This document shows positions 8,190 to 63,441 of a DNA stretch of 64,000 bases, piece after piece; position 1 is the stretch's first letter; the number at the start of each line of letters is the position of its first letter. Below the pieces are notes generated by a model. That model searched no databases. It worked only from the letters and a program-made list of their open reading frames with translations, and had not been told where the DNA came from. Position numbers and translations under genes: made by a program. Source of the DNA: Bacteroidaceae bacterium (GTDB lineage: Bacteria; Bacteroidota; Bacteroidia; Bacteroidales; Bacteroidaceae); contig JAFSRW010000057.1 in assembly GCA_017445925.1 (NCBI GenBank), forward strand, positions 49,577 through 113,576. Direction: 5' to 3'.

Positions 8190-11100
8190 ATGAAAAGAAA
8201 CAAACTTTTGATGTTGTTTGCTGCAACCCTATTGTGGTTGGGTGGACAAAGTGCAAGTGCCGTCACGCTTACTGCTGTGGCAGGTAATCACTGGGGATCT
8301 AATGAGAGCCCAGTACAATTGGTGGACGGTAAAAAAGGAACCAAATGGGGAAATGGCGGCGATTGCCCGCATTATGCAATCTTTAAATCAGATTTACCTC
8401 TTACCCCCGCATCGTATGTCCTGAGAATTGCCAATGACACAAACTCTAACACAGGTCGTAACTGGAAGTCTTGGAAGATTTATGGTGGCAACTTTGCTTC
8501 TGACGAAGAGGCTCAGAGCGAAGCCGCAGTATGGAATTTGATTGATACTCAAACTGATGTTGAGCTTCCGACAGCTCAGTACGAAGAATGTACTATCACA
8601 GTTTCTGGTGACAATAGCAATTTTTATTCTTATTTCAAGATTGTTGTTGAGCATCTGGTTTCTGATGGTCAGTATATGCAGATGGATGAATTCTGGTTCA
8701 AAGATTATACTGTTGACACCAGCGCTTTCGATGAGCAAATTCAGAACTGTAAGGTTTTCGACTTGACAGGAGTGGATGAAGACATTACTGCTGAGTACAA
8801 TGGTAAGCTGAATGAACTTATAAATTCCGAAGACCCTGCTGTTATTGAGAAATTAATCAGTGAATTGAACAGCCTGCAAGCTTTCATCACAGAATATAAG
8901 GATAAGGTATTTGCTCCACTGTCTGCTGTAGGAGAAAGTGTTTGGGGCGATGGTTCTTGGACAAACTTGATCGATGGCAATATGGATACCAAGTGTGGTG
9001 GTGGTCTTCCCGCAGGTGGTGCATGGCTGGTATTCCGTGCTAATGGTGGTGCTGATCCATTTGTATATACGCTGACAACAGGTAAGGACACAAAGCAGTA
9101 TCCTGGCCGTAACTGGAAGTCTTGGAAGATTTATGGTGCTAACTTTGCAACTCTTGCCGAAGCAACTCGTGATGCAGAGGGTTGGGTATTGCTCGACAGC
9201 CGCGAGAATGTAGGTCAGGATTTGTTCCCTGCAGAGAACCTGAGTCCTGCAGCATTTAGTTTCAGCGAATTCCCTGACGGTTTGGACAAGAAATACTATT
9301 ACTTCCGCGTTGAGTTGTCTGCTGCTTATGATGGCACAGCTTATCAGATGACTGAGATTGAGTTCCTTACAAAGCAACAGGTGGAAGATACAAGAAAGAG
9401 CTTCTTGGCAGAATTTGATGACTTTGATGTTGAGGCACTTAATATTGAGGCCTCTATGGCCAATGTCAAGGCAGAGTATCTCGCCAGGTTAGAGGAATTG
9501 AAGACAACCTCTGATGTCGTAGCTATGTCTAAGGCATACAATGCATTGAAAGAACTGAGAAAGCAGCTTCAGGCCTCTGCTGATTACGTTGCAGGTGATC
9601 TTTACAAGGTATTGTCAGGTAATACTGCTTGGGGCGATGGTGAAAACTGGACCAAGTTGCTTGATGGCGACATAAGCACCAAGTGGGGTGGTGGTATGCC
9701 TGAGGATGGATCATACGTTATCTTCAGAACCTATGCTGCCAACACATCAGTTGCATATACATTGGTAACGGGTAATGATACAGGCAATAGCCCTGGCCGT
9801 AACTGGAAGACTTGGAAGATTTACGGAGCTAATATTAAGGGCGACATGGATGAATCGGCAGTTCGCAACTTCAGCAACTGGAAGTTGATTGACCAAAAGA
9901 GTGACATCGGCCAGGATCAACTGCCTCCAGCTAACTTTGCTCCCGCTTTCTTCAGCTTCAGTGAAGAATGGAGTAAGTATAAGTACTTTAAGATTGAGGT
10001 AGAAGCAGCATACGATGGTGGCAATATCCAGATGTCAGAGTTCAAGATGTACTCAGACGAAGAGTGGAAACTTGTATGTCAGGAGTATGCAGACTCTCTG
10101 AATAGATTGCTGATAAAAGTTATAGACAATAAGCCACTTACAGAGCCTGTTGCAACAGAAGTTTCATCTGCTATTACTGCTGTAAGCGAGGCTACACCTG
10201 AAGAGTTGCTGACTAAGTTTGCTGCTGCTCATGAGGTTATCAATAATGCTCTTAAGAAGAGTTATGCTGAAGTTGCTGCTGGTGATGCAGACTGCATCCT
10301 TCCTTCTATGAAGTGGGGTGGCGATTATAAGGCATTCACCTATCTGGCTCAAGGTGACTTCGAATATGGTGACTGGAACGACCAGAATCCCAACTATAAC
10401 AAGATCATCGGTGTGCCTGAGGCACAGGATGGTAAGGATTGGTATTCACCTGACTATGCTGTAGGTTCTTGGAACTATGGCCAGGATCTGCCTAACTTTG
10501 GTGATGGACGTCCTGCTGACGTATATGCCGTTCGCTACTTTACAGTTAATGGTGAGATTCCTTCTACCGTTTATATGCCTGCTGCTCACGATGATGCTCC
10601 TTGCGAGTACTACATCAATGGTGAGTTGATTTGGGCAGAGACCGATGGTTGGAAGGAAGATGAGGTCGTTCGTTTGACCGACTCTCAGAAGGCTCTTATC
10701 AAGACCGACGGTAGTGTAAACGTATTTGCATTCCATGTTCACCAGAACTGGGGTGGCCGCTATGCTGACGGTGGTCTCTATACTGCTGGTAATATGGTTA
10801 ACGATTTTAACAATACCGCACCTGCTGTAGATGCTACACTTGCTTTGGCAGAAAAAGAAGGCATCGATGCAGAGGTAATAGAATTTGCAAAGTCAAAAGT
10901 TAATTATCGTGCCGGAAGAGACCAGGCTCTTACTAAATTACGTCAGGCTCGTCGCTTTGCAGCAGATTCGCGTACAGAAAACTTCAAGGGTACTGCACCT
11001 ACAGATGGCCTGACAGTTTATATCTTCAACGTAGGTGCCAAGATGTTCTTGGCTGGTGGTAACGATTGGGGTACACACGCTTCTTTGAACCACATGGGTG

Positions 11101-12611
11101 CTAAGTGCGTTCTCCGCGCTAACTCTTCAGGCGAGAACCGCTATGCTATCAAGACCAACCTGCCTAATGGTAGTCGCAACGACTATGATGGTCTTGGCCA
11201 TAACGGATATGTTGACTGCCAATATGGTGCTGACTTCACAACTGCAGAAGGTTGGGCTTGGACATTCGAGGCTTTGGAAGATGGCACATACCACATTATC
11301 AACTCTCAGAACAGTGGCGCTAACATTTATTTGGGTATGACAGATGACGATCGTCTGCAGGTTGATACCGACAAGTCTGGTGCTGACAATCCGTTCAACA
11401 AGTGGTTGCTGGTTACTCCAGAAGAGTTCCTTGCTTTGGCAGAGGAAGCAACAGCTGAGAATCCTGTTGACCTTGGTCATCTGATTCATCAGGCAACCTT
11501 CTCTCAGAACGACTTCGAAGGTGATGATAAGGGTCCAGCCAATCTGTATGAGGACAACAATGAGATTTGGGAAAAATATTCTAAGTGGGAACGTAACGCT
11601 GGTTCAATCTGGAATTATAAGGGTAATGCTGCCGGTGGCGACTACATGTTTGAGCAGTGGAATACTGCTGACAGGGGTAAGGTATATCTGATTCAGGAGG
11701 TTGAAGGCCTGCCCGCTGGTAAGTATACCGTATCTATGAACGGTTACTATCGTGATGGTAACTATGAGGACGCTATTGGTGGCAACGTTCGTCAGTTGGC
11801 ATACCTGTTTGCAGGTTCTGAGGAGAACTGTGTTCCTCTGGCAAGTATTATGGAAGGCGAAGGTAATGCACCCGGTTACGGACGTGATGGCAGAATACCT
11901 GATGGCTGTTATGATGCTGCTAAATTCTTCCAGGTAGGTACATATACCAACACGATTGATGCTGTAGTAGGTGCTGACGGCAAGTTGAAGATTGGCGTAT
12001 TCCGCGATGCTGAAGACGTTAAGGGTGGTGACTGGATTACCACTGACAACTGGCGTCTCTTCTATAAGGGTAATTCCGTTGATGTAACTATCTCTGATGC
12101 TGGCTATGCAACCTTTGTTGCTCCTGGATACATCGACGAGATGCCTGAGGGCGTAGAGGCATTTGCCGCTAAGGTTCAAGAGGGTTATGTTCATCTGGAG
12201 CCTGTAACAGCTATTCCTACTGATGCTGCCGTTGTATTGAAGGGTGATGAAGGTACTTATTCATTCTATCCAAAGGCTGTTGGTGTAGACCTTGTTCTTG
12301 ATAACGATTTGGTTGCTGCCAAGGAAGAGGTTACAGCTAATGGTGGTCAGTTCATTTTGGCTAAGTTGGACGGCAAGGCAGGTTTTGCTAAGGCTGCTCC
12401 CGGCACCGTTATTCCTGCTGGTAAGGGCTACTTGGTATTCTTGAATGCTGTGAAGGCCTTCTATCCTTTCGGCGAAGAAGAAACAGGCATTGAGAACGTT
12501 AATGCTAACCTTAACCTTAACGAGGGTCCTATTTACAACATAGCAGGTCAGCGTGTGAACAAGGCTCAGAAAGGTATTTATATTATTAACGGCAAAAAAA
12601 TACTTAAGTAA
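8190..12611 (+). CDS. Giant T9SS-exported protein with three discoidin-like repeats
   Basis: The signal peptide is MKRNKLLMLFAATLLWLGGQSASA. Three F5/8-C (discoidin)-like repeats follow, each with a W-G-x-G...DG...T-K-W-G block and an RNWK[ST]WKIYG[GA]N motif near residues 90, 308 and 538. A galactose-binding-like jelly roll lies near residues 700-850 (EYYINGELIW, VFAFHVHQNWGGRYADGGLY). A ricin-like beta-trefoil candidate is near 934-1071, and another carbohydrate-binding-like module (GKYTVSMNGYYRDG) lies near 1094-1291. A beta domain shared with other proteins here (VDVTISDAGYATFVAPG) spans about 1297-1431. The last 40 residues are a T9SS sorting tail ending KGIYIINGKKILK. No catalytic domain was recognised. 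The likely role is a surface adhesin or glycan-binding protein (inferred). A paralog follows at 13056, and a peptide gene starts one base after the stop. Confidence 0.9.
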   Translation: MKRNKLLMLFAATLLWLGGQSASAVTLTAVAGNHWGSNESPVQLVDGKKGTKWGNGGDCPHYAIFKSDLPLTPASYVLRIANDTNSNTGRNWKSWKIYGGNFASDEEAQSEAAVWNLIDTQTDVELPTAQYEECTITVSGDNSNFYSYFKIVVEHLVSDGQYMQMDEFWFKDYTVDTSAFDEQIQNCKVFDLTGVDEDITAEYNGKLNELINSEDPAVIEKLISELNSLQAFITEYKDKVFAPLSAVGESVWGDGSWTNLIDGNMDTKCGGGLPAGGAWLVFRANGGADPFVYTLTTGKDTKQYPGRNWKSWKIYGANFATLAEATRDAEGWVLLDSRENVGQDLFPAENLSPAAFSFSEFPDGLDKKYYYFRVELSAAYDGTAYQMTEIEFLTKQQVEDTRKSFLAEFDDFDVEALNIEASMANVKAEYLARLEELKTTSDVVAMSKAYNALKELRKQLQASADYVAGDLYKVLSGNTAWGDGENWTKLLDGDISTKWGGGMPEDGSYVIFRTYAANTSVAYTLVTGNDTGNSPGRNWKTWKIYGANIKGDMDESAVRNFSNWKLIDQKSDIGQDQLPPANFAPAFFSFSEEWSKYKYFKIEVEAAYDGGNIQMSEFKMYSDEEWKLVCQEYADSLNRLLIKVIDNKPLTEPVATEVSSAITAVSEATPEELLTKFAAAHEVINNALKKSYAEVAAGDADCILPSMKWGGDYKAFTYLAQGDFEYGDWNDQNPNYNKIIGVPEAQDGKDWYSPDYAVGSWNYGQDLPNFGDGRPADVYAVRYFTVNGEIPSTVYMPAAHDDAPCEYYINGELIWAETDGWKEDEVVRLTDSQKALIKTDGSVNVFAFHVHQNWGGRYADGGLYTAGNMVNDFNNTAPAVDATLALAEKEGIDAEVIEFAKSKVNYRAGRDQALTKLRQARRFAADSRTENFKGTAPTDGLTVYIFNVGAKMFLAGGNDWGTHASLNHMGAKCVLRANSSGENRYAIKTNLPNGSRNDYDGLGHNGYVDCQYGADFTTAEGWAWTFEALEDGTYHIINSQNSGANIYLGMTDDDRLQVDTDKSGADNPFNKWLLVTPEEFLALAEEATAENPVDLGHLIHQATFSQNDFEGDDKGPANLYEDNNEIWEKYSKWERNAGSIWNYKGNAAGGDYMFEQWNTADRGKVYLIQEVEGLPAGKYTVSMNGYYRDGNYEDAIGGNVRQLAYLFAGSEENCVPLASIMEGEGNAPGYGRDGRIPDGCYDAAKFFQVGTYTNTIDAVVGADGKLKIGVFRDAEDVKGGDWITTDNWRLFYKGNSVDVTISDAGYATFVAPGYIDEMPEGVEAFAAKVQEGYVHLEPVTAIPTDAAVVLKGDEGTYSFYPKAVGVDLVLDNDLVAAKEEVTANGGQFILAKLDGKAGFAKAAPGTVIPAGKGYLVFLNAVKAFYPFGEEETGIENVNANLNLNEGPIYNIAGQRVNKAQKGIYIINGKKILK

Positions 12612-12612: not shown

Positions 12613-12771
12613 ATGATGAAATATATTAAACCCGCTCTGCGGGTAGAAGAGGCAGAAGTTGTCAGCATGCTGGCAGAGAGTCTGCCAATCGATAGTGACA
12701 CCACAGTAGATGGTGGTGAAGCATTGACAAAGGAAAGTTCTTGGGAGATTTGGTCTGATGATAAGGAATAA
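12613..12771 (+). CDS. Small acidic peptide, copy 1 of a three-member family
   Basis: This 52-codon ORF begins MMKYIKPALRVEEAEVV and ends in an acidic segment containing TKESSWEIW and DDKE. Two near-identical copies occur at 18664 and 48706; all three share SMLAESLPID and VDGGEALTKE. Each lies right behind a T9SS-substrate gene. Here the ATG is one base after the stop of that gene, so translational coupling is likely. A strong terminator follows at 12810-12845. There is no signal peptide or membrane segment. The Gly-Gly followed by a short Trp-containing acidic C-terminus resembles a leader-core peptide precursor, but this is inference from shape only. Conservation of reading frame across the three copies, with mostly synonymous or conservative changes, supports a real gene. 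Confidence 0.82.
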   Translation: MMKYIKPALRVEEAEVVSMLAESLPIDSDTTVDGGEALTKESSWEIWSDDKE

Positions 12772-12809
12772 TCTCATGTCAATGACATAATCATTTAATA
12801 TTCTAAGTG

Positions 12810-12845
12810 AGAGACTGGTGCTAAGTTTAGTGCCAGTCTCTTTTT
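12810..12845 (+). terminator. Rho-independent terminator after peptide copy 1
   Basis: The hairpin pairs AGAGACTGG-GC at 12810-12821 with GC-CAGTCTCT at 12832-12842 and is followed by a T run at 12841-12845. Confidence 0.85.
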
Positions 12846-13055: not shown

Positions 13056-16000
13056 ATGAAAAGAAACAAACTTTTGATGTTGTTCACTGCAGTACTGTTG
13101 TGGCTGGGTGGACAAAGTGCAAATGCAGGTGTCACGCTTACGTGCTTAAGCGGTTCCGGCTTTGGCGGTAATGAAGGTCCCGCCAAGTTGGTAGATGGCA
13201 CCCAGGACACCAAGTGGGGTACTTGGGCAGGTTGGTATCATACTTATGAAAGTAATGATAATCTGCCGAATGCTATCTTCAAGGCTGCTCTTCCTATTGC
13301 AGTCGCTGACTATGAGTTGGTCATTGCCAACGACACCAATGGGCATCCCGGTCGTAACTGGAAATCTTGGAGAATCTATGGTGGCAACTTTGCATCTGAT
13401 GCAGATGCTGTTTACAGTGAAACGGGAGAAGGCTGGGTATTGCTTGACCAGAAGGTGGATCAGGCAATGACAACAGATCAGTTTGCTGTAGTGCCTCTGA
13501 CTGTTTCAAATCCCGACGGTAAGTTCTATTCTTATTTCATGATTATCGTTGATGCTATTTGTTCAGATGCAGCTTTTGATGACTACACACAGATGGACGA
13601 GTTCCGTTTTGTGAACGAGAAGGTTGACACATCTGCTGGTCAGGTTTATTTGGATTACAATCCAACAGATGTTGATGCAGACCTCGTGGAAGCATACGCT
13701 GCAAAGAAGGCAGCTTTGCAGGCAGCTTATGATGCTGTTGATGTAGAGGCAATCATCGCCGCAACGAGCGAATGTGCTCAATTAAAGGATAAGATTACTA
13801 CTCTTCAGAACGGAGGATTCATCGCTCTTGATTGGACTGCTGCTTGGGGTGACGGTCCCGGCTCAAACCTTGTGGACAAGGATGATTACACCAAGTGGGG
13901 TGGTAACTTCCCTGACGAAGGTGAGCATGTTCAGTATGTAGTATTCCGCTGTCAGTCACAGCAGCCCTATTTTTATAAGTTAGTGACTGGTGGTGATACA
14001 GAAAGATGGAACACACGTAACTGGAAGACATGGAAGGTGTTTGGTGGAAACTTTGCCTCTGAAGCTGAGGCAACAAGAAGTGCTGAGGGATGGGTAGTGC
14101 TTGATGACAGAACGGACATTAGCACCGATTACCTGCCCAATAAGAACAATTATCCTGCTACCCTTACCTTTACCAATGGCGTAACAGCAGCTTATTCTTT
14201 CTACAAGGTGGAGGTTTATGCTTCTGGTGGCAGCCAGCAGCAGATGTCTGAGATTTATCTCTGCACAGAGGAAGAGTTCAATGCTATCCGTCAGGGTTTG
14301 GTGGATGAGCTGGCAGAGTTTGCTGCCGGTTTGGAAAACCTGGTTGTTACTTCCGACATGGAAGCAAGCAAGACAACCTTCGCAGAGAAGTATGCAGAGT
14401 TGCAGACCACAACCAATGCTGACGAGTTGACTTTCAAATTTAACGAACTCGTAGCCTTGAAAGAAGCTCTCGAAGAGTCTGCTGCCTATGCAGGCGGTGG
14501 CTATCGTGTTCTTGATGGTAATACGGCTTGGGGAGATAACGAGAACTGGACCAAATTGCTTGATGGTAAAGAAGAGACCAAGTGGGGTGGCGGTATGCCA
14601 GAAGGTGGTTCATTTGTAATCTTCAGAACTTACGCAGCTAATAAGTACAATCAGTATATGCTGGTTACCGGTAACGATACCAAGAATAGCCCGGGTCGTA
14701 ACTGGAAGACTTGGAAGATTTATGGTGCCAATGTAAAGGGCGACATGGATGATCAGGCAAAACGCGACTTCAGTAACTGGAAGTTGATTGACCAGAAGAG
14801 TGATATTGGTCAGGATCTGTTGCCTGGTGCCAACTTTACCCCAGCTTTCTTCAACTTCAGCGAAGAGTGGAGTAAGTATAAGTACTTCAAGATTGAGGTT
14901 GAGGCAGCATACGATGGAGGTTCTATTCAGATGTCTGAATTCAAGTTCTTGAGTGATGAAGAATATGCAGCAAAACGTCAGGAATATGTAAATGCTTTGA
15001 CCGAGGCAGGCATGTCTCTTGCAGACCTTGCTGAACAGATAGATCTTCCTGCTGCTGTGAAGGAACAGTTGTTAGCACAGTTAACAGAAAAAGTAGGCGG
15101 CATGATTGCTGAGGTAGCTCAAGCTCCTGCAGGTGAATTGCTTCCCAAGTATAATGCAGCAATGGAATTCATTACCAAGGGTATTCCTGCATTGGCTGCT
15201 GATTATACCTTGGAGGAGGTTGATGGTGTATATCAGATCTCTAAGCCTCAGCAGATGGTTACCTTCGCTGCAATCGTAAACAGTGGTAATCCAGAGGTTG
15301 ATGCAGTTCTTACTGCTGACATTGATATGTCTGAAATAGCTAATTGGACAGCCATCGGTGACTGGGGTGGCATTAGTGGCACTGCAAGTGCTTGCTACAA
15401 GGGTCACTTCGACGGCCAGGGACACACCATTAACAACTTCACATTTACATCGACCCATAACTATTATGGAGTCTTTGGTGTAATCTCAACAGGTGCACTC
15501 ATTGAGAACTTTGATATCTATGGTACTATTAACACCACAATCCAAAATGCTGGTGGCGTAGCAGGTTATGCTCGTGACGAAGGTCCTACCATTCGCAATA
15601 TCCATAGCTTTGTCAACATCAACAATTCTTTCGCTGGTGGCAGACAAGGTGGTATCCTGGGGAATTCTAACAATGGTACTGTATTTATTGAGAATTGTTG
15701 GTATTCTGGTACATTGGATGGCAATGATGCTGCTAATAATGGTAACTATGGTGGTATTATTGGTTATGTTCAGAATAATGCAAAGGCTATCGTTACAGTT
15801 AATAACTGCTTGTTCGATGGTAAGGTAATTAATACTGCTGAGACTCCGGGAAATTGCACCTTTGGCGGTATCATTGGATACAACAATGGTGGTAAGGCTA
15901 CAATTAAGAACTGTTTGTCTATTGGCACATTACAATCTGCCATAACAGGTCAGTTCTTTGGAAAGATCAATGGGAACAACTCTATTTTTGCCAATAACTA

Positions 16001-18542
16001 TTATAAGGGTTCATTCGTTAATGGCAATGGTAGCGCTGGAACTGTAGGTGGTGATGCTCCGGTAGAAGTTACCGATGATCAGCTCGCAAGCGGTGAGATT
16101 GCATGCAAGCTTGGCGGTGGTTGGGACCAGAATCTTGGAGAGAATCCTGATCCATATCCTGTACCCGGTGGCGAGTTGTACATCATCGAAAGCGATGGAA
16201 AATATGTGCATCCTTCTGTAGAAGTGGCTAAGGGCGATGCCGAGTGCATCCTTCCTTCTAAGAAATATGATGGCGCATACGACGCTTACACCTTCGTTGC
16301 TCAGGGCGATTTTGACTATGGTGATTGGAACGAGCAGAACCCCAACTATAACAAGATTATTGGTGTTCCTGCTGAGCAGGACGGTATAGCATGGTATGCT
16401 CCCAGTTTCTCTGTAAATGGCTGGAATTATGGCCAGGATCTGCCTAACTTTGGTGACGGACGTCCTGCTGATGTATATGCAGTTCGCTACTTCACTGTTG
16501 AGGGTGAGATTCCTTCTACTCTTTATATGCCTGCTCCTCACGATGATGCTCCTTGCGAGTACTACATCAATGGTGAGTTGATTTGGGCTGAAACCGATGG
16601 TTGGAAGGAAGATGAAGTTGTTCGTCTGACCGACTCTCAGAAGGCTCTTATCAAGACCGACGGTAGTGTAAACGTATTTGCTTTCCACGTTCACCAGAAC
16701 TGGGGTGGCCGCTATGCTGACGGTGGTCTCTATACTGCTGGTGCTATGGTTGACGCCTTTAATAATGATGTTAAGGCTCTTGATGCTACAATTGCTTTGG
16801 CAGAGAAGGAAGGCATCGATGCTGATATTATTGATTTTGCAAAGGCTAAGGCTTCATACCGTGGCGGTATGGGTACTGGTCTTTCATACTTGCGTATGGC
16901 TCGTCGCTTTGTTGCAGACGCTCGTACCGAGAACTTCAAGGGTACAGAGGCTGCAGATGGCCTGACAGCTTACATCTTCAACGTAGGTGCTAAGATGTTC
17001 TTGGCAGGTGGTAATGATTGGGGAACTCATGTTTCTCTGAACCACATGGGTGCTAAGTGCGTGTTGCTCGCTAACTCATCTGGCGAAAACCGCTACACCA
17101 TCCAAACCAACCTGCCTAACGGACTCCGTGGCAAGAACGATGCTCTCGGCCACAACGGTTATGTTGACTGCGGCGATTTGAATACAACCGAAGAGCGTTG
17201 GGCTTGGACATTCGAGGCTTTAGCCGATGGCACATACAATATTATCAATGCCGAGAATGGAAAATTCTTGGGTATGACTAAGGGTGAAGGCCTACAGGTT
17301 GATACCGACAAGGATGCTGCCAATGGCGACTACAACAAGTGGATACTCGTAACTCCTGAAGAGTTTATGGATTTGGCAGCTGAAGCTACACCAAACAATC
17401 CTGTTGACCTCGGTCACCTGATTCATCAGGCAACCTTCGCACAGAATGATTTCGACGGTAATGATAAGGGCGCTGCTAATGCTGATCTCAACGATTCTAA
17501 GTGGGAGTGCAACGCTGGTAGTATCTGGAACTGGAAGGGTAATTCTGCTGGTGGTGACTACATGTTTGAGCAGTGGAACACCGCTGACAAGGGTAAGGTA
17601 TATTTGGTTCAGGAGGTTGAAGGTCTGCCCGCAGGTAAGTACACCGTATCTATGAACGGCTACTATCGTGATGGTAACTTCGAGAGTGCTGATGAGGGTA
17701 ACGTTCGTCAGTTGGCTTATCTGTTTGCTGGTACTGAAGAAAACTGCGTACCTCTGGTTAGCATTGTTGAAGGTAGCGGCAACGCTCCTGGTTATGGTCG
17801 TGGTGGTGCCAGTGGTATCGTAATACCTGATGGTTGCCATGATGCTGCCAAGTTCTTCCAGGTAGGTACCTACATTAACACCATTGAAGCTGAAGTTGGT
17901 GCTGATGGTAAGTTGAAGATTGGCGTCTTCCGCGATGCAGAGGATGTTAAGGGTGGTGACTGGATTACTACCGACAACTGGCGTCTCTACTACATGGGTA
18001 ACCCCGTTGATGTAACTATCACTGATGCTGGTTATGCAACCTTCGTTGCTCCTGGTTATGTCGATGAGTTGCCTGAGGGCGTTGAGGCATTTGCTGCTAA
18101 GGTTCAAGAGGGTTATGTTCATCTGGAGCCTGTAACTGCTATTCCTGCAGATGCAGCTGTTGTACTGAAGGGTGTTGCTGGTGATTATACCATCTATCCT
18201 AAGTCTGTAGGTGTTGACCTTGTTCTCGACAACGATCTGATTGCTGCTAAGGAAGAGGTAACAGCTGACGGTTCTCAGTTCATTCTGGCTGAGATGGGTA
18301 AGACTGTAGGCTTCGCCAAGGCTACTCCTGATACTAAGATTGCTGCAGGCAAGGGTTACTTGGTATTCTTGAATGCTGTGAAGGCCTTCTATCCCTTCGA
18401 TGAGGAAGGTGAGACTGGCATTGAGAACGTTAACGCTAACCTTAACCTTAACGAAGGCGCTATCTACAACATAGCTGGTCAGCGTGTGAACAAGGCTCAG
18501 AAGGGCATCTTCATTATTAATGGTAAGAAGGTGCTGAAATAG
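13056..18542 (+). CDS. Giant T9SS-exported protein, discoidin repeats plus GLUG insert
   Basis: This is a paralog of the protein at 8190, longer at 1828 residues. The signal peptide (MKRNKLLMLFTAVLLWLGGQSANA) and the bases just before the ATG are almost identical to it. Discoidin-like repeats have their RNWK-[ST]-W motifs near residues 102, 323 and 550. A region absent from the paralog spans about 766-982 and has GLUG-type beta-helix motifs (GHFDGQGHTINNFTF, GVFGVISTGALIENF, NAGGVAGYA, GGIIGYNNGGKATIKNC). After it, the galactose-binding-like (about 1062-1212), ricin-like, and C-terminal modules realign with the paralog. It ends in a T9SS tail, KGIFIINGKKVLK. GLUG repeats are known from IgA-peptidase-like and adhesin proteins, so adhesion or glycan binding is the best guess. 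No enzyme motif was found. Confidence 0.9.
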   Translation: MKRNKLLMLFTAVLLWLGGQSANAGVTLTCLSGSGFGGNEGPAKLVDGTQDTKWGTWAGWYHTYESNDNLPNAIFKAALPIAVADYELVIANDTNGHPGRNWKSWRIYGGNFASDADAVYSETGEGWVLLDQKVDQAMTTDQFAVVPLTVSNPDGKFYSYFMIIVDAICSDAAFDDYTQMDEFRFVNEKVDTSAGQVYLDYNPTDVDADLVEAYAAKKAALQAAYDAVDVEAIIAATSECAQLKDKITTLQNGGFIALDWTAAWGDGPGSNLVDKDDYTKWGGNFPDEGEHVQYVVFRCQSQQPYFYKLVTGGDTERWNTRNWKTWKVFGGNFASEAEATRSAEGWVVLDDRTDISTDYLPNKNNYPATLTFTNGVTAAYSFYKVEVYASGGSQQQMSEIYLCTEEEFNAIRQGLVDELAEFAAGLENLVVTSDMEASKTTFAEKYAELQTTTNADELTFKFNELVALKEALEESAAYAGGGYRVLDGNTAWGDNENWTKLLDGKEETKWGGGMPEGGSFVIFRTYAANKYNQYMLVTGNDTKNSPGRNWKTWKIYGANVKGDMDDQAKRDFSNWKLIDQKSDIGQDLLPGANFTPAFFNFSEEWSKYKYFKIEVEAAYDGGSIQMSEFKFLSDEEYAAKRQEYVNALTEAGMSLADLAEQIDLPAAVKEQLLAQLTEKVGGMIAEVAQAPAGELLPKYNAAMEFITKGIPALAADYTLEEVDGVYQISKPQQMVTFAAIVNSGNPEVDAVLTADIDMSEIANWTAIGDWGGISGTASACYKGHFDGQGHTINNFTFTSTHNYYGVFGVISTGALIENFDIYGTINTTIQNAGGVAGYARDEGPTIRNIHSFVNINNSFAGGRQGGILGNSNNGTVFIENCWYSGTLDGNDAANNGNYGGIIGYVQNNAKAIVTVNNCLFDGKVINTAETPGNCTFGGIIGYNNGGKATIKNCLSIGTLQSAITGQFFGKINGNNSIFANNYYKGSFVNGNGSAGTVGGDAPVEVTDDQLASGEIACKLGGGWDQNLGENPDPYPVPGGELYIIESDGKYVHPSVEVAKGDAECILPSKKYDGAYDAYTFVAQGDFDYGDWNEQNPNYNKIIGVPAEQDGIAWYAPSFSVNGWNYGQDLPNFGDGRPADVYAVRYFTVEGEIPSTLYMPAPHDDAPCEYYINGELIWAETDGWKEDEVVRLTDSQKALIKTDGSVNVFAFHVHQNWGGRYADGGLYTAGAMVDAFNNDVKALDATIALAEKEGIDADIIDFAKAKASYRGGMGTGLSYLRMARRFVADARTENFKGTEAADGLTAYIFNVGAKMFLAGGNDWGTHVSLNHMGAKCVLLANSSGENRYTIQTNLPNGLRGKNDALGHNGYVDCGDLNTTEERWAWTFEALADGTYNIINAENGKFLGMTKGEGLQVDTDKDAANGDYNKWILVTPEEFMDLAAEATPNNPVDLGHLIHQATFAQNDFDGNDKGAANADLNDSKWECNAGSIWNWKGNSAGGDYMFEQWNTADKGKVYLVQEVEGLPAGKYTVSMNGYYRDGNFESADEGNVRQLAYLFAGTEENCVPLVSIVEGSGNAPGYGRGGASGIVIPDGCHDAAKFFQVGTYINTIEAEVGADGKLKIGVFRDAEDVKGGDWITTDNWRLYYMGNPVDVTITDAGYATFVAPGYVDELPEGVEAFAAKVQEGYVHLEPVTAIPADAAVVLKGVAGDYTIYPKSVGVDLVLDNDLIAAKEEVTADGSQFILAEMGKTVGFAKATPDTKIAAGKGYLVFLNAVKAFYPFDEEGETGIENVNANLNLNEGAIYNIAGQRVNKAQKGIFIINGKKVLK

Positions 18543-18663: not shown

Positions 18664-18819
18664 ATGAAATATATTAAACCTATTTTGAAGGTGGAAGAGG
18701 CTGAAGTTGTCAGCATGCTGGCAGAGAGCCTGCCAATCGATGGTGGCACCACAGTAGATGGTGGTGAAGCATTGACTAAGGAAAGTTCTTGGGAGATTTG
18801 GTCCGATGATAAGGAATAG
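18664..18819 (+). CDS. Small acidic peptide, copy 2 of a three-member family
   Basis: This 51-codon ORF starts MKYIKPILKVEEAEVVSML and ends with ...WEIWSDDKE and TAG. Compared with copy 1 it differs mainly at residues 7-9 and in GG for SD before TTVDGG; most other base changes are silent. It lies 121 bp behind the stop of the second discoidin protein, separated by the paired palindromic element. Transcription from the upstream gene would have to pass those hairpins, so expression may be reduced or processed relative to copy 1. Function unknown; see copy 1 for what can be said about shape. Confidence 0.82.
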   Translation: MKYIKPILKVEEAEVVSMLAESLPIDGGTTVDGGEALTKESSWEIWSDDKE

Positions 18820-18842
18820 TCTTTAGTTTTAGAGTATAGAAG

Positions 18843-18874
18843 AAGGGCTGGTGCAAATAGCGCCAGCCCTTTAT
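18843..18874 (+). terminator. Hairpin terminator between peptide copy 2 and gltX
   Basis: AAGGGCTGG-GC pairs with GC-CAGCCCTT and a short T-rich tail follows. It sits between convergent genes and may serve both. Confidence 0.65.
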
Positions 18875-45730: not shown

Positions 45731-48586
45731 ATGAAGAAAATCCTACTTTTTTTCATTGGATTGGTGATGGCAACCATTACGTATGCCGCCCCCATTGAGG
45801 CTACGCCGGTGGATAACATCGCGTCGTACACAGGAAGTGACCCTTACGTCTATGACCAGACGGCAAGGAAATTCTATGCTTACAACAACCAAGGTGTTTA
45901 TGAGGAGTATGGCATTATTACTAAGGTCAATACCCTGAAAGTTGCCGGTGGCGGAGCTACAGAGATTGAGTATATCGCCACTACCGTTGCCACGGGCAAG
46001 CCCTATATCAATACGGAATATGTACATACCGCTAACACCCGTATTTTAATGGAGTGTGATATTGATGGCAGCAATACAGGCAATTATCAGGCTCCTTTCG
46101 GTTCCCGTTCAAACTATGGAACCGACATGTTTGTTTTCTTCTGGCGCTTTGCAGGTCAGAATACCGGTTGCTTCGCCCGCAATGCCGAGGTAACAGGAAC
46201 AGAAGAAATTCCCACAGGAGAAAAGATTCTGGTAGATGCCGGTGGCTTGACCCTGAATGTTTTCAAAGACGGAGAGGCAGAGCCCTGCGCAACCATTACT
46301 GGTGAGGGTGAATCCAAGGGTGGTACAACACCTATGTATATCTTTGACCTCTGTCATACCAATCATCCCGATAACTCAGCAACTTTCATGAAGCTTTATA
46401 CCTTCAAGATTTTCGAAGGTGAGTTGTTGAGGATGGACCTTGTTCCCGTTGTTGACAGCGAGGGAAAAGGCGGTTTGAAGGACAAAATCACAGGTAAGGT
46501 ATTCTATTCTGCTAATGAAGCCAACTTTGAGCTCAGCCCCGACGGTCAGGCTATTGCCGAAGAAGCAGGTATTACTGTGTATCCCGGCAAGCTTGTTGTC
46601 AACACCAAGGACAACCACGAGTACAAGTGGAACGGTACTGATTGGGAGGACATGGGTGCTGTAAATACGGTAGCTATTAATCAGAAGGAATACAAGGACC
46701 TGAATAACTGGACCACCAACAACGATCACAAGAACGTATTCGAGGGCAAGATTACATACGATGAAGCAGCAGGAACCTGCCATCTGGACAACTATGTTGG
46801 TACTGGCGGCTGGGAGCCTCTCTATTACAGAATGGAAGGCTTGGAGGCTGGTGTTACCTATAAGGTGTCATTCGTCTTCAGTTGCGAACAGTGGAAATCA
46901 TGGAACGAGGGAGCCTACTCATTCCTGCCCTTCTATGTCCGCAATACCGATGCATTCGACCACGCTTCAGCTCCCAATAACGTAGGTGGCGAAATCTTAG
47001 GTATGACCCGTTTGCCAAAGGCACAGACTACCAACCAGCCTTACTCATTTGAGTTTACAGCAGATAAGGATTGGGATGTGTTGAACATCCAGTTCGGTGT
47101 ATGCGACGACGGCGAGCACAATCCTCCTTACTATTTCTATTTTGACAATCTCACGATTGAGAAGTATGTCTTCCCCGCAGCATACGACGAGATAACCTGG
47201 AAGGATACCAAGAAGTACACCCCGCTGGCATACATTGAGAGTGTAAGCGCTGCCCGCGAGAACGTATTTGAGTTCCCCTATAAGCCTACTACCGACAGCA
47301 AGGTGAACATTAAGTTCCAAACTGAGGTTGAAGGCGGTTGGCGTGCTATCTTCAGTGCACGTAACATATATGCAGGAACAGGTATGTCACTCTACATCAA
47401 CGGTAACGACAATGCCCACATCGGTTACTTCACTGGTGGTACAACAGGTAGCGGTGACAACCGTGCTCCATTTGAAATTGGTAAGGAATATGAGGCAGAG
47501 TGTACTGTTGACAACCTGAAACTCAACGATGTGGACTATCCTACTGGTGAGACTGCTTGCAATGCAACAAGCCGTAACTTCAGCATCTTCGCTAACCCCG
47601 AGTGGGACAACGCTTTCCATGGTCGCATCTGGTACTTCAGACTTTCAGAAGGTGAAGAGGAAATCTGCAACTACGTACCTGCTATGCGTCACGATGGCGT
47701 ATTCGGTTTCTATGATACTGTGAAGGGCGATTTCGTTCTGCCTAAGCAGGGATTCGACGGATATACTTTCCAGTTGTCAGAGGATCAGGCTTATGTTTGC
47801 TTCCTCCCAGAGGCTCGTACCGTAGCAGCCGGAGCAAAAGCAAACTTCCAGCCCACCATCCAGAATTTGGATAATGTGAATTTGACATGGAAGTCAGCCG
47901 ACGAGAGCATTGCTACCGTTGCTGAGGATGGTACTGTTACAGGTGTAGCATTAGGTAAGGTTCAGATTACCTGTACTACCGATGCTGATGGTGGTTGGGA
48001 AGCTGCCTATACGTTGGAAGTTACCCAGAAGACAACAGACACTTACCAGTTTGCTGAGGGTTCTGTTTATGGTACTTACGTAGCTCCATTCGATATCTCT
48101 AAACTCCACTCTAAGGTTCAGGCATTTACTGTAGAGGTAGTGGACGGCGGATTTGCCAAGTTGAACGAGGTGAAGGCCATTCCTAAGGGCGAGGCTGTTG
48201 TCCTCAAGGATAATGGTACAGGTCATAAGTATGCACTTAACAAGTCGGAGGAAACCGTTCCTGCTATCACAGGCAACGACTTGCAGCCTGCCAACGAAGA
48301 GATTACAGCCAACGGAGGTCAGTTCATTCTGGCTAAGTTGGATGGTAAGGTTGGCTTTGCCAAGGCTGCTCCCGGCACCGTTATTCCTGCTGGCAAGGGC
48401 TACCTGGTATTCTTGACTGCTGTGAAGGCATTCTATCCCTTCGAAGAGGAAGATGCTACTGGCGTTGAGAACGTTAACGCTAACCTTAACCTTAACGAAG
48501 GTGCTATCTACAACATAGCTGGTCAGCGTGTGAACAAGGCTCAGAAGGGCATCTTCATTATTAATGGTAAGAAGGTGCTGAAATAG
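45731..48586 (+). CDS. T9SS-exported multidomain surface protein, LamG-like and Ig-like modules
   Basis: The 951-residue product has a signal peptide (MKKILLFFIGLVMATITYA) and a LamG/concanavalin-like module near residues 75-270 (GKPYINTEYVHTANTRILMEC; FMKLYTFKIFEGE). A carbohydrate-binding-like module lies near 315-480 (YYRMEGLEAGVTYKVSFVF). A second LamG-like module is near 500-680 (FQTEVEGGWRAIFSARNIYAG), and a Big_2-like Ig domain near 694-767 (NLTWKSADESIATVAEDGTV). The C-terminal beta domain (GTYVAPFDISKL ... PAGKGYLVFL) and T9SS tail are almost the same as in the proteins at 8190 and 13056. No catalytic motif was found; glycan binding or adhesion is likely. Peptide copy 3 follows after a paired palindromic spacer. 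Confidence 0.87.
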   Translation: MKKILLFFIGLVMATITYAAPIEATPVDNIASYTGSDPYVYDQTARKFYAYNNQGVYEEYGIITKVNTLKVAGGGATEIEYIATTVATGKPYINTEYVHTANTRILMECDIDGSNTGNYQAPFGSRSNYGTDMFVFFWRFAGQNTGCFARNAEVTGTEEIPTGEKILVDAGGLTLNVFKDGEAEPCATITGEGESKGGTTPMYIFDLCHTNHPDNSATFMKLYTFKIFEGELLRMDLVPVVDSEGKGGLKDKITGKVFYSANEANFELSPDGQAIAEEAGITVYPGKLVVNTKDNHEYKWNGTDWEDMGAVNTVAINQKEYKDLNNWTTNNDHKNVFEGKITYDEAAGTCHLDNYVGTGGWEPLYYRMEGLEAGVTYKVSFVFSCEQWKSWNEGAYSFLPFYVRNTDAFDHASAPNNVGGEILGMTRLPKAQTTNQPYSFEFTADKDWDVLNIQFGVCDDGEHNPPYYFYFDNLTIEKYVFPAAYDEITWKDTKKYTPLAYIESVSAARENVFEFPYKPTTDSKVNIKFQTEVEGGWRAIFSARNIYAGTGMSLYINGNDNAHIGYFTGGTTGSGDNRAPFEIGKEYEAECTVDNLKLNDVDYPTGETACNATSRNFSIFANPEWDNAFHGRIWYFRLSEGEEEICNYVPAMRHDGVFGFYDTVKGDFVLPKQGFDGYTFQLSEDQAYVCFLPEARTVAAGAKANFQPTIQNLDNVNLTWKSADESIATVAEDGTVTGVALGKVQITCTTDADGGWEAAYTLEVTQKTTDTYQFAEGSVYGTYVAPFDISKLHSKVQAFTVEVVDGGFAKLNEVKAIPKGEAVVLKDNGTGHKYALNKSEETVPAITGNDLQPANEEITANGGQFILAKLDGKVGFAKAAPGTVIPAGKGYLVFLTAVKAFYPFEEEDATGVENVNANLNLNEGAIYNIAGQRVNKAQKGIFIINGKKVLK

Positions 48587-48705: not shown

Positions 48706-48861
48706 ATGAGATACATTAAACCAATAATTAAAGTAGAAGAGGCAGAAGTTGTCAGCATGCTGGCAGAGAGCCTGCCAATCGATGGTAACACCACAGTAGA
48801 TGGTGGTGAAGCACTGACCAAGGAAAGCAGTTGGGAAATCTGGTCAGATGACAAGGAGTAA
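48706..48861 (+). CDS. Small acidic peptide, copy 3 of a three-member family
   Basis: This 51-codon ORF starts MRYIKPIIKVEEAEVVSML, continues through VDGGEALTKESS and ends WEIWSDDKE with TAA. Relative to copy 2 it differs by K2R, L8I and G28N (approximate positions) plus silent changes (for example AGC/AGT, GCA CTG/GCA TTG). It lies 119 bp after the third T9SS substrate gene and is followed by a strong terminator, so the upstream gene and the peptide are a transcription unit in all three cases. Nothing in the copy suggests decay. Function unknown. Confidence 0.82.
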   Translation: MRYIKPIIKVEEAEVVSMLAESLPIDGNTTVDGGEALTKESSWEIWSDDKE

Positions 48862-48900: not shown

Positions 48901-48935
48901 AAGAGGCAGAAACGGGAACGTTTCCGCCTCTTTTT
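48901..48935 (+). terminator. Terminator after peptide copy 3
   Basis: AAGAGGC-GAAACG pairs with CGTTTC-GCCTCTT, followed by TTT. Confidence 0.82.
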
Positions 48936-59789: not shown

Positions 59790-61421
59790 TTATTTGTCTA
59801 GTTTTATAACCTCGTTGCACAATTCACAGACCGTAGTACGATGGGTAATAAAGATCATCGTCTTCTGTGGATAGGCAGCAAACAGACGGCTATACAGTTC
59901 GTGTTCTGTCTCTTCGTCGAGTGACGCGCTGATTTCATCTAACAGCATAATGTTACCCGGTCTGAGCAACCCGCGTGCTATCGCTATGCGCTGTGCCTGA
60001 CCCTCGCTCAGGCCACTACCCCGTTCTCCACACTCAGCATCCATGCCTTCCGGCAAGTTGAGCACGAAGTCTGCCATAGCCGTATGGAGTACCTGACGCA
60101 TTTCCTCGTCGGTAGCATCGGGTTTGGCTAACAGCAGGTTATAGCGGATGCTGCCACTCATCAGGGTATTGCCTTGAGGCACGAATACGAAGTTGGTGCG
60201 AGTGCTTTCGCTGACAACTTGCCTCCTGTCGGCATTAAATAACGTCATCGTTCCCTGGTCAGGCTTGATGAGTGCCAACAACAGGCGGAACAGCGTTGTC
60301 TTACCTGCTCCTGTGTGTCCCATCAGTGCTGTCTTGCTGCCAGGAGCAAACAGATGTGTAAAGTGAGAGAGAATCTCGCGGTCGCCCAAGGCATAGCGGA
60401 AACTTACATCCTGAATATCCAATCCCAGCTGCCCCTCCATCTTACAGCTGTCATCATGGCGTTCTTCCTCAGCTTCCATGTGTTCCATCTCCTCCAATCG
60501 GTCTATGCTAGCTGAAGCCTGAAACATCTGAGGCATCATATTCACCATCTGCAGGATGGGTTGTTGAATCTGGCTTACCAATTGAAGGAACGAAGTCATC
60601 ACACCAAAGGTGATAACGCCAGCCTTCAGTTGCAGGCCGCCCCAGATAAAGGCAACGATGTATCCCAAGCTGAAACTCATACCGATTAATAAGCGGAACA
60701 GCACCGTGAATTGTGCCCGATGGTTCACCTTCCCTCTCAGGTCGTGCTGCATGTTGTCAAGGCGTCCTGTCACCCAGTCTCCGCTCTCCAACGAACGCAG
60801 CACGGCATTATGTTCCATCGACTCCTGCACCAGCATCTGAATGACGCTCTCCTGCCGACGTATCTCCTGCGTCATCTTACGGATTTTCCACGCCACCATC
60901 TTGCCTATCATCACAAATACCGGAGTCAGCAACAGCAGCACCCAAGCTAAGCGTTCATCCATTACCTGCATCAGCAGGAAGGCGCCTAACAACTGAAAAG
61001 TGGTTACGCACAGGTCAGGAATGATGGACGTAGTAGCACTGCTTACCGTACTGATGTCTTTTTCCAGACGCGAGGAGATATCGCCAGAGTGCATCTCCTT
61101 CTGCTCAAACATCTGCCGGCGAAACAGATGGCTGAAGATACGCAGACGGATAGAAGTGCTCTGTCTGGCTTCGGCTTTCACACCTAAGTAATAGTAGATC
61201 TGACGACAGATAATTCCGCCAATCACCACAGACACGATATAGGCTACCATCAGCACAATATCCTCGTCGGACCCCGTCCTGATAGTCACATCAATAAACT
61301 GTTTGCATAGCCACACCATTAGCAGGCCGAGCAATACTCGCCCGATTCCTGCCATGATGCGCACCAGCATATTCAGCCTAATGCCCACCGTGTTATGCCA
61401 AAGCCATGTTATGTACTTCAT
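59790..61421 (-). CDS. ABC transporter, fused membrane and ATPase domains (exporter type)
   Basis: The 543-residue half-transporter has about six membrane helices over residues 15-290 (IMAGIGRVLLGLLMVWLC; IVLMVAYIVSVVIGGIICRQ; VLLLLTPVFVMIGKMVAW; LLIGMSFSLGYIVAFIWGG). The ATPase has Walker A GHTGAGKTTLF near residue 368, Q-loop FVPQGN, signature LSEGQAQRIAIARG (LSEGQ variant of LSGGQ), Walker B IMLLDEISASLD and the H-loop FITHR. There is no N-terminal C39 peptidase domain. It is the last gene of an operon with HPr-kinase-like, S26-type peptidase and PqqD genes, where such exporters carry the mature peptide out (inference). Confidence 0.92.
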   Translation of the reverse strand: MKYITWLWHNTVGIRLNMLVRIMAGIGRVLLGLLMVWLCKQFIDVTIRTGSDEDIVLMVAYIVSVVIGGIICRQIYYYLGVKAEARQSTSIRLRIFSHLFRRQMFEQKEMHSGDISSRLEKDISTVSSATTSIIPDLCVTTFQLLGAFLLMQVMDERLAWVLLLLTPVFVMIGKMVAWKIRKMTQEIRRQESVIQMLVQESMEHNAVLRSLESGDWVTGRLDNMQHDLRGKVNHRAQFTVLFRLLIGMSFSLGYIVAFIWGGLQLKAGVITFGVMTSFLQLVSQIQQPILQMVNMMPQMFQASASIDRLEEMEHMEAEEERHDDSCKMEGQLGLDIQDVSFRYALGDREILSHFTHLFAPGSKTALMGHTGAGKTTLFRLLLALIKPDQGTMTLFNADRRQVVSESTRTNFVFVPQGNTLMSGSIRYNLLLAKPDATDEEMRQVLHTAMADFVLNLPEGMDAECGERGSGLSEGQAQRIAIARGLLRPGNIMLLDEISASLDEETEHELYSRLFAAYPQKTMIFITHRTTVCELCNEVIKLDK

Positions 61422-61656: not shown

Positions 61657-61926
61657 CTAATCAATAAGTCCCGCTTCCTTCCACTTTGCGGTCAGCTTCT
61701 CCACATCGTTGAGAGCTTGCTCGCGACTTACCTCATATACCTCCACCAACGCATCAGCCAACTGTTCTATGGTAAAGTCACCCAGCTCGGTAGCTTTCTG
61801 CCACAGCGTTGCTGCTGTATCATTAACGCTGATAAGCTTGCCAAAGTTGATTGTTTCCAGGCCTTCGCCCACTATGACTTTCTCGCCGCACACTTCGCGC
61901 AGCACAAATCCTTTCTTGATTTTCAT
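61657..61926 (-). CDS. PqqD family protein (RiPP recognition element)
   Basis: The 89-residue protein starts MKIKKGFVLREVCGEKVIVG. It has the PqqD pattern INFGKLISVNDTAATLWQKA and FTIEQLADALVEVYEVSREQALNDVEKL, ending KWKEAGLID. PqqD-type winged-helix domains bind leader peptides of ribosomally made, modified peptides and present them to the modifying enzymes. Its first bases overlap the peptidase stop by four (ATGA), so the two are translated together. No precursor peptide gene is adjacent; see findings. Confidence 0.92.
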   Translation of the reverse strand: MKIKKGFVLREVCGEKVIVGEGLETINFGKLISVNDTAATLWQKATELGDFTIEQLADALVEVYEVSREQALNDVEKLTAKWKEAGLID

Positions 61927-62399
61927 ATAACTATATTCAATTTAACTAATGTTCTACGATAAATGGCCAGTATCCAGCGCCTTACAGGAAGCAGCCTGCG
62001 CCACATACGAGCAAAGCGCATCCTGCCCTTCGTGTACAGATACCGGCGCTTCCCTTTGGGAGAGATCACATATTCAGCTATGGCAGCCACCTCATCTTTC
62101 GAGCAGCGCTCTATACCTCTTATATTACCGTCGCCCATCAGGCTAATCTGGTTTCCCTCTATTCCGATGATGCGATGTATCACATAGTGCGAGCCATCCA
62201 CCCAGGCTAACACCACATCACCCACTTTCAAAGGAGCTTGCGGACTCACCAGTTCCACGCTCTCCTTGCCACCGATGATAAACGGGTGCATGCTACCGCC
62301 TTTTACCGCCAGCACCACTCTCCTACCCTCCTGCAGCAACGTAATAGCCTCCTTAATAAGGATATCACCATACAGCGCCTTCACAACTGGTTGTTCCAT
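61923..62399 (-). CDS. S24/S26-type peptidase (signal-peptidase-like) in PqqD operon
   Basis: The 158-residue protein has GGSMHPFIIGG with the catalytic Ser (near residue 36) and LKVGDVVLAWVDG. The next block is YVIHRIIGIEGNQISLMGDGN, where His occupies the place of the usual Lys, as in ER/SipW-type signal peptidases. The C-terminus is basic and partly hydrophobic. Instead of secretory signal peptides it may cut the leader of a modified peptide, given its place between the HPr-kinase-like and PqqD genes (inference). The frame overlaps PqqD by four bases. Confidence 0.85.
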   Translation of the reverse strand: MEQPVVKALYGDILIKEAITLLQEGRRVVLAVKGGSMHPFIIGGKESVELVSPQAPLKVGDVVLAWVDGSHYVIHRIIGIEGNQISLMGDGNIRGIERCSKDEVAAIAEYVISPKGKRRYLYTKGRMRFARMWRRLLPVRRWILAIYRRTLVKLNIVI

Positions 62400-62402: not shown

Positions 62403-62585
62403 TTTTAACGATAACGTTAACGATAACTCTTTTTTGTTAATTGTTAATTGTTATTTGTTAATTATCTCCGTTTTTGTTAATAGCCAATAGCCAATAGCCA
62501 AAGTCTCAATAACCCCTAACCGTTCTTGAACCCTTGAACTTCTTGAACCCCTTGAACTAGTTAACGTTAGCGTTAACGTTAGGGT
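62403..62585 (+). repeat. Composite intergenic repeat, copy 3
   Basis: Hexamers (62405-62427), TTGTTAATTGTTATTTG, ATTATCTCCGTTTTTG, AGCCAATAGCCAATAGCC, CTTGAACCCTTGAACTTCTTG. It ends in GTTAAC/GTTAGC hexamers (62559-62583), which form the last codons of the HPr-kinase-like gene. Confidence 0.8.
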
Positions 62586-63441
62586 TTTTAACCGTGCTAT
62601 TGCACACCCTCGCTGCCTCTTCATCGGGCAGACAGTCCAAGTGCCAGACAGAAGCGTTTGTGGCCAATAGGTTTTCCGTCTCATGCAAACCTTCCGCTAA
62701 ACGGCTGTCCCAGCGTTTGCCAGAGATAGACATCATCAGGGCAGCGTATGCTTCTAAGGGTTTTAATTTACGGATAGCATTCTTGGGAGCCTGGCTCAGG
62801 TCCACGAGTGCTCCTAAGGGGTAGCTGACGTTGCGGTAACAAGGCGTCTTTCCGCTCCAGGGTGAGCCATAAACACGGATAGAACCATCGTCGAGTAGAC
62901 GCACCACAGGGTTATCATCGTTTACCAGTTCCGTTCCCTCAATGTATTTCAGCCACAGTTTAGAGTGTGTACTCTTGCCGGTTCCGCTTTCCCCTAGGAA
63001 CATATATGCCTTGCCTTCGTAGCTGACCACCGAAGAGTGGAACAGTGCCGTATGTTTATCGGCAGTGGCCAGGGCAAACATTACCATCATGGCATTGTTG
63101 ATGCCAAACAGGTTGTTATTCTCTGCATAAACGTCAGCGTACTTATAATCTGTATGGCATACGAGTACGCCTTTTAGCTGATTATGATGGAAAAACTGAT
63201 AACAGGGTTCCTCTCCTAAGTGGCCCACTAAGATATGCTGACCTTCATCATCCTGTCTCCATTCCTGCGTAAAGTCATCCAGCGACAGTGGCTCAGATAG
63301 GAGTTGCATACGGAACAACACATTCTCCGTAGGGTCAGTCACAAACGGGTCGTATTGTCTCAGGTTGAGTACCGCCGTCTCGTTGTTTCCCAGTTCCAAG
63401 GCAAACACATGGTCCGCCACCTTATAATATATTTCTTTCAT
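62557..63441 (-). CDS. HPr-kinase-like (HprK/PEPCK-fold) peptide-modifying ATPase
   Basis: The 294-residue product has an N-terminal region of about 130 residues without known motif. A PEPCK/HPr-kinase-like ATPase follows: LFHSSVVSYEGKAYMFLGESGTGKST (Walker A GESGTGKST, near residue 160), ELVNDDNPVVR (acidic loop, Walker B-like) and YGSPWSGKTPCY. Members in lasso-peptide operons phosphorylate the precursor peptide; that role is inferred here. I chose the ATG at 63441, which lies 22 bp after the -7 box; the frame extends through TTG to 63465. Oddity: the last residues, NPNVNANVN, are the translation of the AACGTT hexamer repeat, so the C-terminus grew into or was replaced by a repeat. Confidence 0.85.
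   Translation of the reverse strand: MKEIYYKVADHVFALELGNNETAVLNLRQYDPFVTDPTENVLFRMQLLSEPLSLDDFTQEWRQDDEGQHILVGHLGEEPCYQFFHHNQLKGVLVCHTDYKYADVYAENNNLFGINNAMMVMFALATADKHTALFHSSVVSYEGKAYMFLGESGTGKSTHSKLWLKYIEGTELVNDDNPVVRLLDDGSIRVYGSPWSGKTPCYRNVSYPLGALVDLSQAPKNAIRKLKPLEAYAALMMSISGKRWDSRLAEGLHETENLLATNASVWHLDCLPDEEAARVCNSTVKNPNVNANVN

Follow-up and report, generated by a model that had tools for sequence, protein, structure and literature searches.

Short Acidic Peptides Encoded behind T9SS-Like Cargo Genes of Bacteroidaceae as Candidate Leader-Core Precursors

Organization of the Locus

The window described here is a stretch of 64,000 nucleotides on contig JAFSRW010000057.1 of a Bacteroidaceae bacterium (assembly GCA_017445925.1). 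Its forward strand holds three small open reading frames (ORFs) at positions 12613..12771, 18664..18819 and 48706..48861, which encode peptides of 52, 51 and 51 amino acids, respectively, and are recognized by ORF, alignment, profile match and codon statistics. The initial annotation had described peptides of 51–52 residues that share nearly all of their residues, and both points were borne out, with 88–94% identity between the copies and 45 of 52 alignment columns identical. The peptides are acidic, with a pI of 4.2–4.3 and a charge of −7.5 to −8.5. At approximately 50 amino acids, they have no significant Pfam or NCBIfam match, and neither a signal peptide nor a membrane helix was seen by eye.

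Each peptide ORF is preceded on the plus strand by a gene for a larger protein, here termed the cargo. Cargo gene 1 (8190..12611) encodes 1473 amino acids, cargo gene 2 (13056..18542) encodes 1828 and cargo gene 3 (45731..48586), which includes a Big_2 domain, encodes 951. The three proteins end in the same C-terminal domain followed by a short T9SS-like tail, and their N-termini resemble signal peptides by eye. In cargo 1, this C-terminal region of undescribed beta domain and tail is encoded by 12069..12608 (plus strand).

The spacing between cargo and peptide is a single nucleotide for copy 1 and approximately 120 nucleotides, including a palindrome-rich repeat, for copies 2 and 3. As this intergenic DNA varies by copy, the peptide has been retained while its surroundings change. 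Downstream of copies 1 and 2, a scan for terminator-like sites returned stem-loops at 12809..12842 and 18842..18872, and a weaker site of two overlapping short stems follows copy 3 at 48909..48926 (all plus strand). Terminator-like sites overall are no more frequent than in shuffled sequence, and the case for terminators behind the peptides is thus argued from their position. The earlier view of the peptide as the last gene of a unit closed by a terminator agrees with these two-gene units and their stem-loops.

Coding Potential and Distribution of the Peptide Family

The peptide ORFs are coding and under purifying selection. Among the copies of this genome, the pooled pN/pS is 0.23, calculated on the six of eight profile-detected copies that are of equal length. 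In a wider set of 54 of 79 copies, again of equal length, the 319 pairs whose dS falls between 0.05 and 1 have a median dN/dS of 0.24. A family without homologs outside this genome, or without codon-position bias, had been named beforehand as the mark of a non-coding duplicated tail. Homologs were found in other genomes, and the same six equal-length copies differ at 89, 58 and 190 sites at codon positions 1, 2 and 3, respectively.

The family is larger than first thought. The three copies of the window stand, but profile A2 detects eight in this genome, which is 84% complete, and two further divergent members lie behind the cargo genes of loci L091 and L116, for a total of at least ten. The broader profile A4 (E ≤ 0.001) matches 134 of the 139 genomes that represent the genus. 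In a sample of 301 genomes from the family it matches 154, spread over 19 of 30 genera. The stricter A2 profile, at E ≤ 0.1, gave no match in 24 other families of the order, each represented by one genome. The named loci belong to uncultured Bacteroidaceae, Prevotellaceae or Bacteroidales, and many of their record titles refer to gut samples of sheep, goat, yak, roe deer or buffalo. Among the 120 protein database entries listed of 188 and 516 hits, the products are unnamed or termed “hypothetical protein”.

Linkage of Peptide and Cargo Genes

Seventy-eight named peptide loci were examined, eight of which end at a contig edge. In all 70 with enough upstream DNA, a tail-bearing cargo gene lies immediately upstream on the same strand, as recognized by a profile of the last 69 residues (domain end and tail). 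The spacing ranges from −1 to 226 nucleotides, and at some loci the stop codon of the cargo gene overlaps or abuts the start codon of the peptide gene. A broader profile, with the best locus taken per genome and weaker matches left out, gave 29 loci, three at contig edges; the other 26 all have an upstream cargo, two of them being places already seen. Within loci L001–L039, a cargo is present in 37 of 39, or 34 of 36 distinct places. One of these loci, L028, was rejected as a false hit. At another, L032, a YxxP-type peptide with a leader ending in MLAAS lies before a lipoprotein-like gene and not behind a cargo; this leader type may serve other partners.

The reverse link, from cargo to peptide, is loose. 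The surroundings of the 78 loci contain 84 tail genes that include the domain end, 70 of which had been fetched because of their peptide, and 25 tail genes that lack it. None of these 25 is followed by a peptide (0/25). Fourteen cargos of the type were fetched independently of the peptide; five have one and nine do not, six of the latter with ample room, two at a contig edge and one a weak match. In the genome of the window, 95 tail matches were found and 70 inspected, and ten of these have a peptide. The eight strongest of the 95 are the eight with a profile-detected peptide; this ranking is partly circular, since genes of this kind had served to build the tail profile, whereas the adjacency counts are not circular.

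Such linkage could also arise if domain, tail and peptide were a recombining 3′ cassette that spreads between cargo genes, with the peptide a passenger of no specific role. The tails and peptides of different cargos within one genome are very alike, their distances correlate, and some cargos of the type have no peptide, all of which would fit. A mere passenger would not be expected to show purifying selection at the protein level or to be kept while the intergenic DNA varies, and the linkage persists over genera with very different peptide cores. The cassette explanation is thus regarded as very improbable.

A dedicated gene directly downstream of the cargo is also known for type B T9SS substrates, whose SprF/PorP-like partners are described as beta-barrel outer-membrane proteins in the available text of PMC12618676 and PMC10202324. 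An SprF/PorP-like accessory was ruled out here on the grounds of products of approximately 50 amino acids with no significant Pfam or NCBIfam match.

The Cargo C-Terminal Domain and T9SS-Like Tail

The cargo ends follow the consensus AGYAT...VLKG...N.LKG...YVLAKPEG..VGFY...GKAYL...VKAF...ATGI...IYNLAGQR..K.QKGINIVNGKK, the front part of which deviates in some cargos, e.g., at L177 and L181. The C-terminal domain has no significant match to a Pfam or NCBIfam family. A first AlphaFold model, made for the cargo 1 end, gives a confident beta domain over residues 1–120 (block means of 88–97), with the tail less certain. Elsewhere in the cargos, matches over the cut-off were obtained in three of seven other pieces, namely laminin-G-like, F5/8C with laminin-G-like, and an M26 N-terminal region.

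The initial annotation had placed T9SS-exported proteins at the head of each unit. A cargo-like gene is indeed upstream, but the curated T9SS tail model, TIGR04183, does not recognize its tail: it exceeds its cut-off at 15 places in the genome and at none of the ten peptide-linked cargo genes. The tails are of a shorter type and fit, by eye and on consensus, the published short T9SS tail motifs of P. intermedia (PMC11969387). As far as the available text of that paper goes, the likeness consists of a GI close to the presumed cleavage site, a Tyr/Gly motif with a basic residue after it, an Ile following G-x-Y or G-x-N, and a terminal Lys/Arg. That text mentions no downstream peptide (“downstream” and “operon” have 0 occurrences in it), and the cargos here differ in the extra undescribed domain that precedes the tail.

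The genome (G000) encodes the SprA translocon, with one match to TIGR04189 at an E of 0. From the short-type tail and SprA together, export of the cargo by the T9SS is inferred. Among the surveyed genomes of the family, SprA is matched in 145 of 154 that are peptide-positive (no match in the other nine) and in 88 of 147 that are peptide-negative, a comparison uncorrected for kinship. Since a short-tail profile (E ≤ 0.01) returns 95 matches in this genome vs. the 15 TIGR04183 places, cargo counts based on TIGR04183 are likely too low here. A further gene end with a T9SS-like tail (IYTVDGKKVSKAAQKGIYIRQG) occupies 63832–64000 on the minus strand, just upstream of the enzyme genes described below, and no peptide gene was seen after it.

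A Core Motif Common to Peptide and Cargo Domain

For 58 of 83 cargo domains, it was possible to define the limits of the loop that precedes N.LKG; 44 of these loops are short (8–20 amino acids) and 14 are long (36–45 amino acids). The peptide core motif TVDGGxALTK is present inside the domain in 14/14 long loops and 0/44 short ones; an earlier pattern scan had located it in 14 of the 83 cargos and in none of 1095 other ORFs. An HMM of the peptide core scores the long loops at 7.6–21.8 bits, 13 of the 14 exceeding 9.8, the maximum of 100 shuffles, and a comparison of insert and peptide-core profiles gives P 2e-8 over 20 columns. The likeness is confined to this segment: no alignment is obtained between profiles of the entire peptide and the entire domain, nor for the domain hairpin. 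Eleven of the 14 cargos with a built-in motif also have a separate peptide, two do not and one is at a contig edge. With 11 of 13 keeping the separate peptide, the insert does not replace it.

The motif finding preceded a structural model in which a cargo end and its peptide (L157) were tethered. In this model, the NKDTTVDGAD block of the peptide reaches a mean pLDDT of 93, the other peptide blocks lying at 45–66, and a strand is formed at SLPI just before it. The model is one single-chain job with 15 paired rows of 38, from which pLDDT and not coordinates was read, and the high value of the core segment could reflect conservation. Docking of the core onto the cargo C-terminal domain is predicted on this basis. 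The common motif points to a single site on the domain for both peptide core and insert; a third partner shared by the two is possible. Of the earlier proposal that the peptides are partners of the surface proteins, it is this sequence-level likeness between peptide and cargo domain that lends partial support.

The Leader-Like Half of the Peptide

Across 30 diverse members, the only invariant residues are the Tyr and Pro of a YxxP motif and one Ser. The Tyr-to-Ser spacing is 19 in 30/30, and an Ala stands two positions before the Ser in 29/30, with Cys in its place in some other members. YxxP is followed by the consensus xxxVEEAQVxxML. The segment before the Ala is near neutral (−3 to +3), and from the Ala onward the charge is −4 to −15. 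At the loci of the broader profile, the leader pattern is kept between genera and the core is variable. The peptide is likely a precursor of leader and core that undergoes processing. A Gly-Gly had been read earlier as a leader feature; it is not conserved among the 30 members and is therefore not a double-glycine leader site.

The part of PMC12710340 that was available describes YxxP as a characterized motif for RRE recognition in lasso peptides. The precursor of a classical lasso peptide or of a graspetide might be considered on this motif and on weak matches of three of the 30 members to a lasso precursor model (best E 0.025). The lasso B2 protease (PF13471) has no match in any of the 20 genomes surveyed for it (0/20), and the MvdD-type ligase of graspetides (TIGR04184) is absent from G000, which leaves this identity with almost no probability.

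The Kinase-Peptidase-RRE Set

Toward the end of the window, on the minus strand, are genes for a PqqD-type RRE protein of 89 amino acids (61657..61926), an S24/S26 signal-peptidase-like protease of 158 amino acids (61923..62399) and an HprK-like kinase of 302 amino acids (62557..63465), which are the candidate leader reader, leader peptidase and Ser kinase, respectively. Beside them, on the same strand, is an ABC exporter of the MsbA or peptide-export type (59790..61421, 543 amino acids), with no peptidase domain among its Pfam matches. The family matches of the protease are weak, to PF00717 above the cut-off (E 1.2e-5) and to an archaeal-type signal peptidase model below it (E 6.4e-6); it appears signal-peptidase-I-like, with the Ser, His and Asp positions. 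The kinase likewise has weak matches to ScmC (2.1e-4) and HprK_rel_A (1.9e-3), both below the cut-offs. Adjoining the exporter gene on the opposite strand is a Schlafen/AlbA_2-type protein with a winged-helix end (57728–59251).

The enzymes were surveyed in 20 peptide-bearing genomes, chosen by the authors and mostly peptide-rich. PqqD (PF05402) exceeds its cut-off in 20/20, at 26 loci that were fetched, one being in the window. At 21 of the 26, kinase, protease and RRE genes are adjacent, in that order and on one strand, and each of the 20 genomes has at least one such set. The SM, HR and GDGN motifs of the protease and the GTGKST (Walker A) of the kinase are kept in at least 95% of the 21 sets. 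PqqD is also found in a control genome, Bacteroides ihuae. Using the window protein as the query, no relative of the exporter turned up in the DNA fetched around the remaining 20 sets (1/21). A second set in the same genome (L247, contig C50) has no exporter and has neighbors as in other genomes.

PqqD matches outside complete sets occur at L260, L261, L262, L270 and L271, with the domains of L260 and L261 within longer frames. At L271, there is a kinase and an RRE without a recognized protease. A YxxP-like peptide of the family, behind its own tail gene, lies on the opposite strand, approximately 1.2 kb away from the gene for this kinase.

No precursor of the family lies beside any of the 21 complete sets, the nearest being a weak match approximately 2.5 kb away (L257). 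The substrates of the enzyme unit must therefore be looked for at other loci. As a candidate substrate, the peptide family fits, judged by its motif, the enzyme types and their co-occurrence in peptide-bearing genomes. The leader-like YxxP half and an enzyme set in 20/20 genomes also give partial support to the earlier suggestion of a secreted or modified peptide.

A system of similar build is found in the linear polyphosphorylated peptides (LPP) of Bacillota. In the available text of PMC13381572, LPP have a YxxP leader, a discrete RRE and an MsbA-like exporter; a signal-peptidase-like protease cuts with the help of the RRE, and an HprK-like kinase acts on Ser3 of a core that begins A1-Q2-S3. 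The peptides here likewise have a YxxP leader and a Ser shortly past the expected cut (A1-x-S3), and the discrete RRE and the signal-peptidase-like protease recur. The weak family matches of the kinase would make it HprK-like, and an MsbA-like exporter lies beside the window set only. The differences are several. No NTP transferase was noticed beside the window set. The phylum is another one, “bacteroid” having 0 occurrences in the main text of that paper; the precursors are many per genome and scattered behind T9SS-like cargo rather than in the enzyme cluster; and the Tyr-Ser spacing is 19 in contrast to 18 in the LPP motif. The motif VLxHQxIxFET, placed between the Pro and the core in the LPP leader as given there, is not present here, only YxxP and the Ser matching. 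As the full leader motif and an in-cluster precursor are both lacking, LPP membership is not claimed; on present evidence, by analogy, the peptide would work like an LPP.

Proposed Function of the Peptides

The proposal put forward here, tentatively and at somewhat less than an even chance, is that the peptide is a leader-core precursor, that it is cut and exported by an RRE-peptidase-kinase set whose genes lie at another place in the genome, and that its acidic core docks onto the C-terminal domain of the neighboring cargo. Cargo and peptide genes lie in one unit, as their adjacency and spacing show. The YxxP leader would be bound by the stand-alone PqqD-type RRE, and the signal-peptidase-like protease would cut just before [A/C]-x-S, yielding a core of approximately 32 residues with A1-x-S3 at its start. 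The invariant Ser is a possible target of the HprK-like kinase. Transport of the core to the periplasm, the expected folding site of the Sec-exported cargo, could be carried out by the MsbA-like ABC exporter beside the set in the window. The segment SLPI..TTVDGGxAL is predicted to dock on the cargo domain. That each cargo is paired with its own copy is more suggestive of a dedicated subunit or folding partner than of a diffusible signal.

Beta domains completed by a short segment are familiar from the donor-strand complementation of pilus subunits. A core supplied in trans or built in would similarly complete the beta domain of the cargo, if the predicted docking applies.

It could be argued instead that the peptides are modified signals or antagonists of a RiPP-like kind, encoded behind surface proteins for co-expression only and with no binding to the cargo. 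The leader-core build, the enzyme set, and a conserved leader joined to a core that varies between genera are all as such peptides would have them. The homology of the core motif to a cargo-domain insert is at odds with this, as is the tethered model, in which the core segment is predicted to be ordered, and ten similar copies in a single genome would be odd for a signal. This role is considered decidedly unlikely.

Unlikely to a lesser degree is a dedicated cytosolic chaperone or export timer, whereby the acidic peptide would stay unprocessed and bind the basic tail or last domain of the cargo emerging from the ribosome. Such a role would be in keeping with the strict linkage, the close spacing, the negative charge of the peptide and a pI of approximately 10 for two cargo tails. 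Within genomes, peptides also diverge in step with the tails of their own cargos (N-half: r 0.46, p 0.0005). A chaperone leaves the invariant YxxP...S pattern and the matching enzyme set unexplained, however, and the core motif built into some cargo domains points to the compartment in which the cargo folds.

The leader-core proposal can be extended to a distributed RiPP pathway: a single RRE-peptidase-kinase set would mature many cargo-specific phosphopeptides, and each of these would act as a strand-donating subunit of the adjacent T9SS surface protein, possibly providing that protein with a phosphate- or sugar-linked anchor. This fuller version is doubtful. If the leader-core proposal is true, RiPP-type processing would have a part in assembling secreted surface proteins, beyond its use for antibiotics or signals, and peptide-modifying enzymes would be tied to a bacterial secretion system. 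The stand-alone kinase-peptidase-RRE set, present in all 20 genomes surveyed, would gain a candidate substrate. Whether the peptides undergo processing and bind the cargo can now be tested directly with a handful of clones, and the analysis points to an undescribed cargo domain as well as to a protein family whose database entries are unnamed or “hypothetical”.

Repeats between Cargo and Peptide Genes

The palindrome-rich repeat (CCTCCC-N3-AGGGAGG ... GGGGAGGATGGGAGGGG) occupies 18556–18655, ahead of copy 2, and 48601–48699, ahead of copy 3, in both cases downstream of the cargo gene, and within the window its exact form is found at these two places only. In other genomes, a similar repeat is present 5′ of the peptides at several contig ends, and it may break assemblies.
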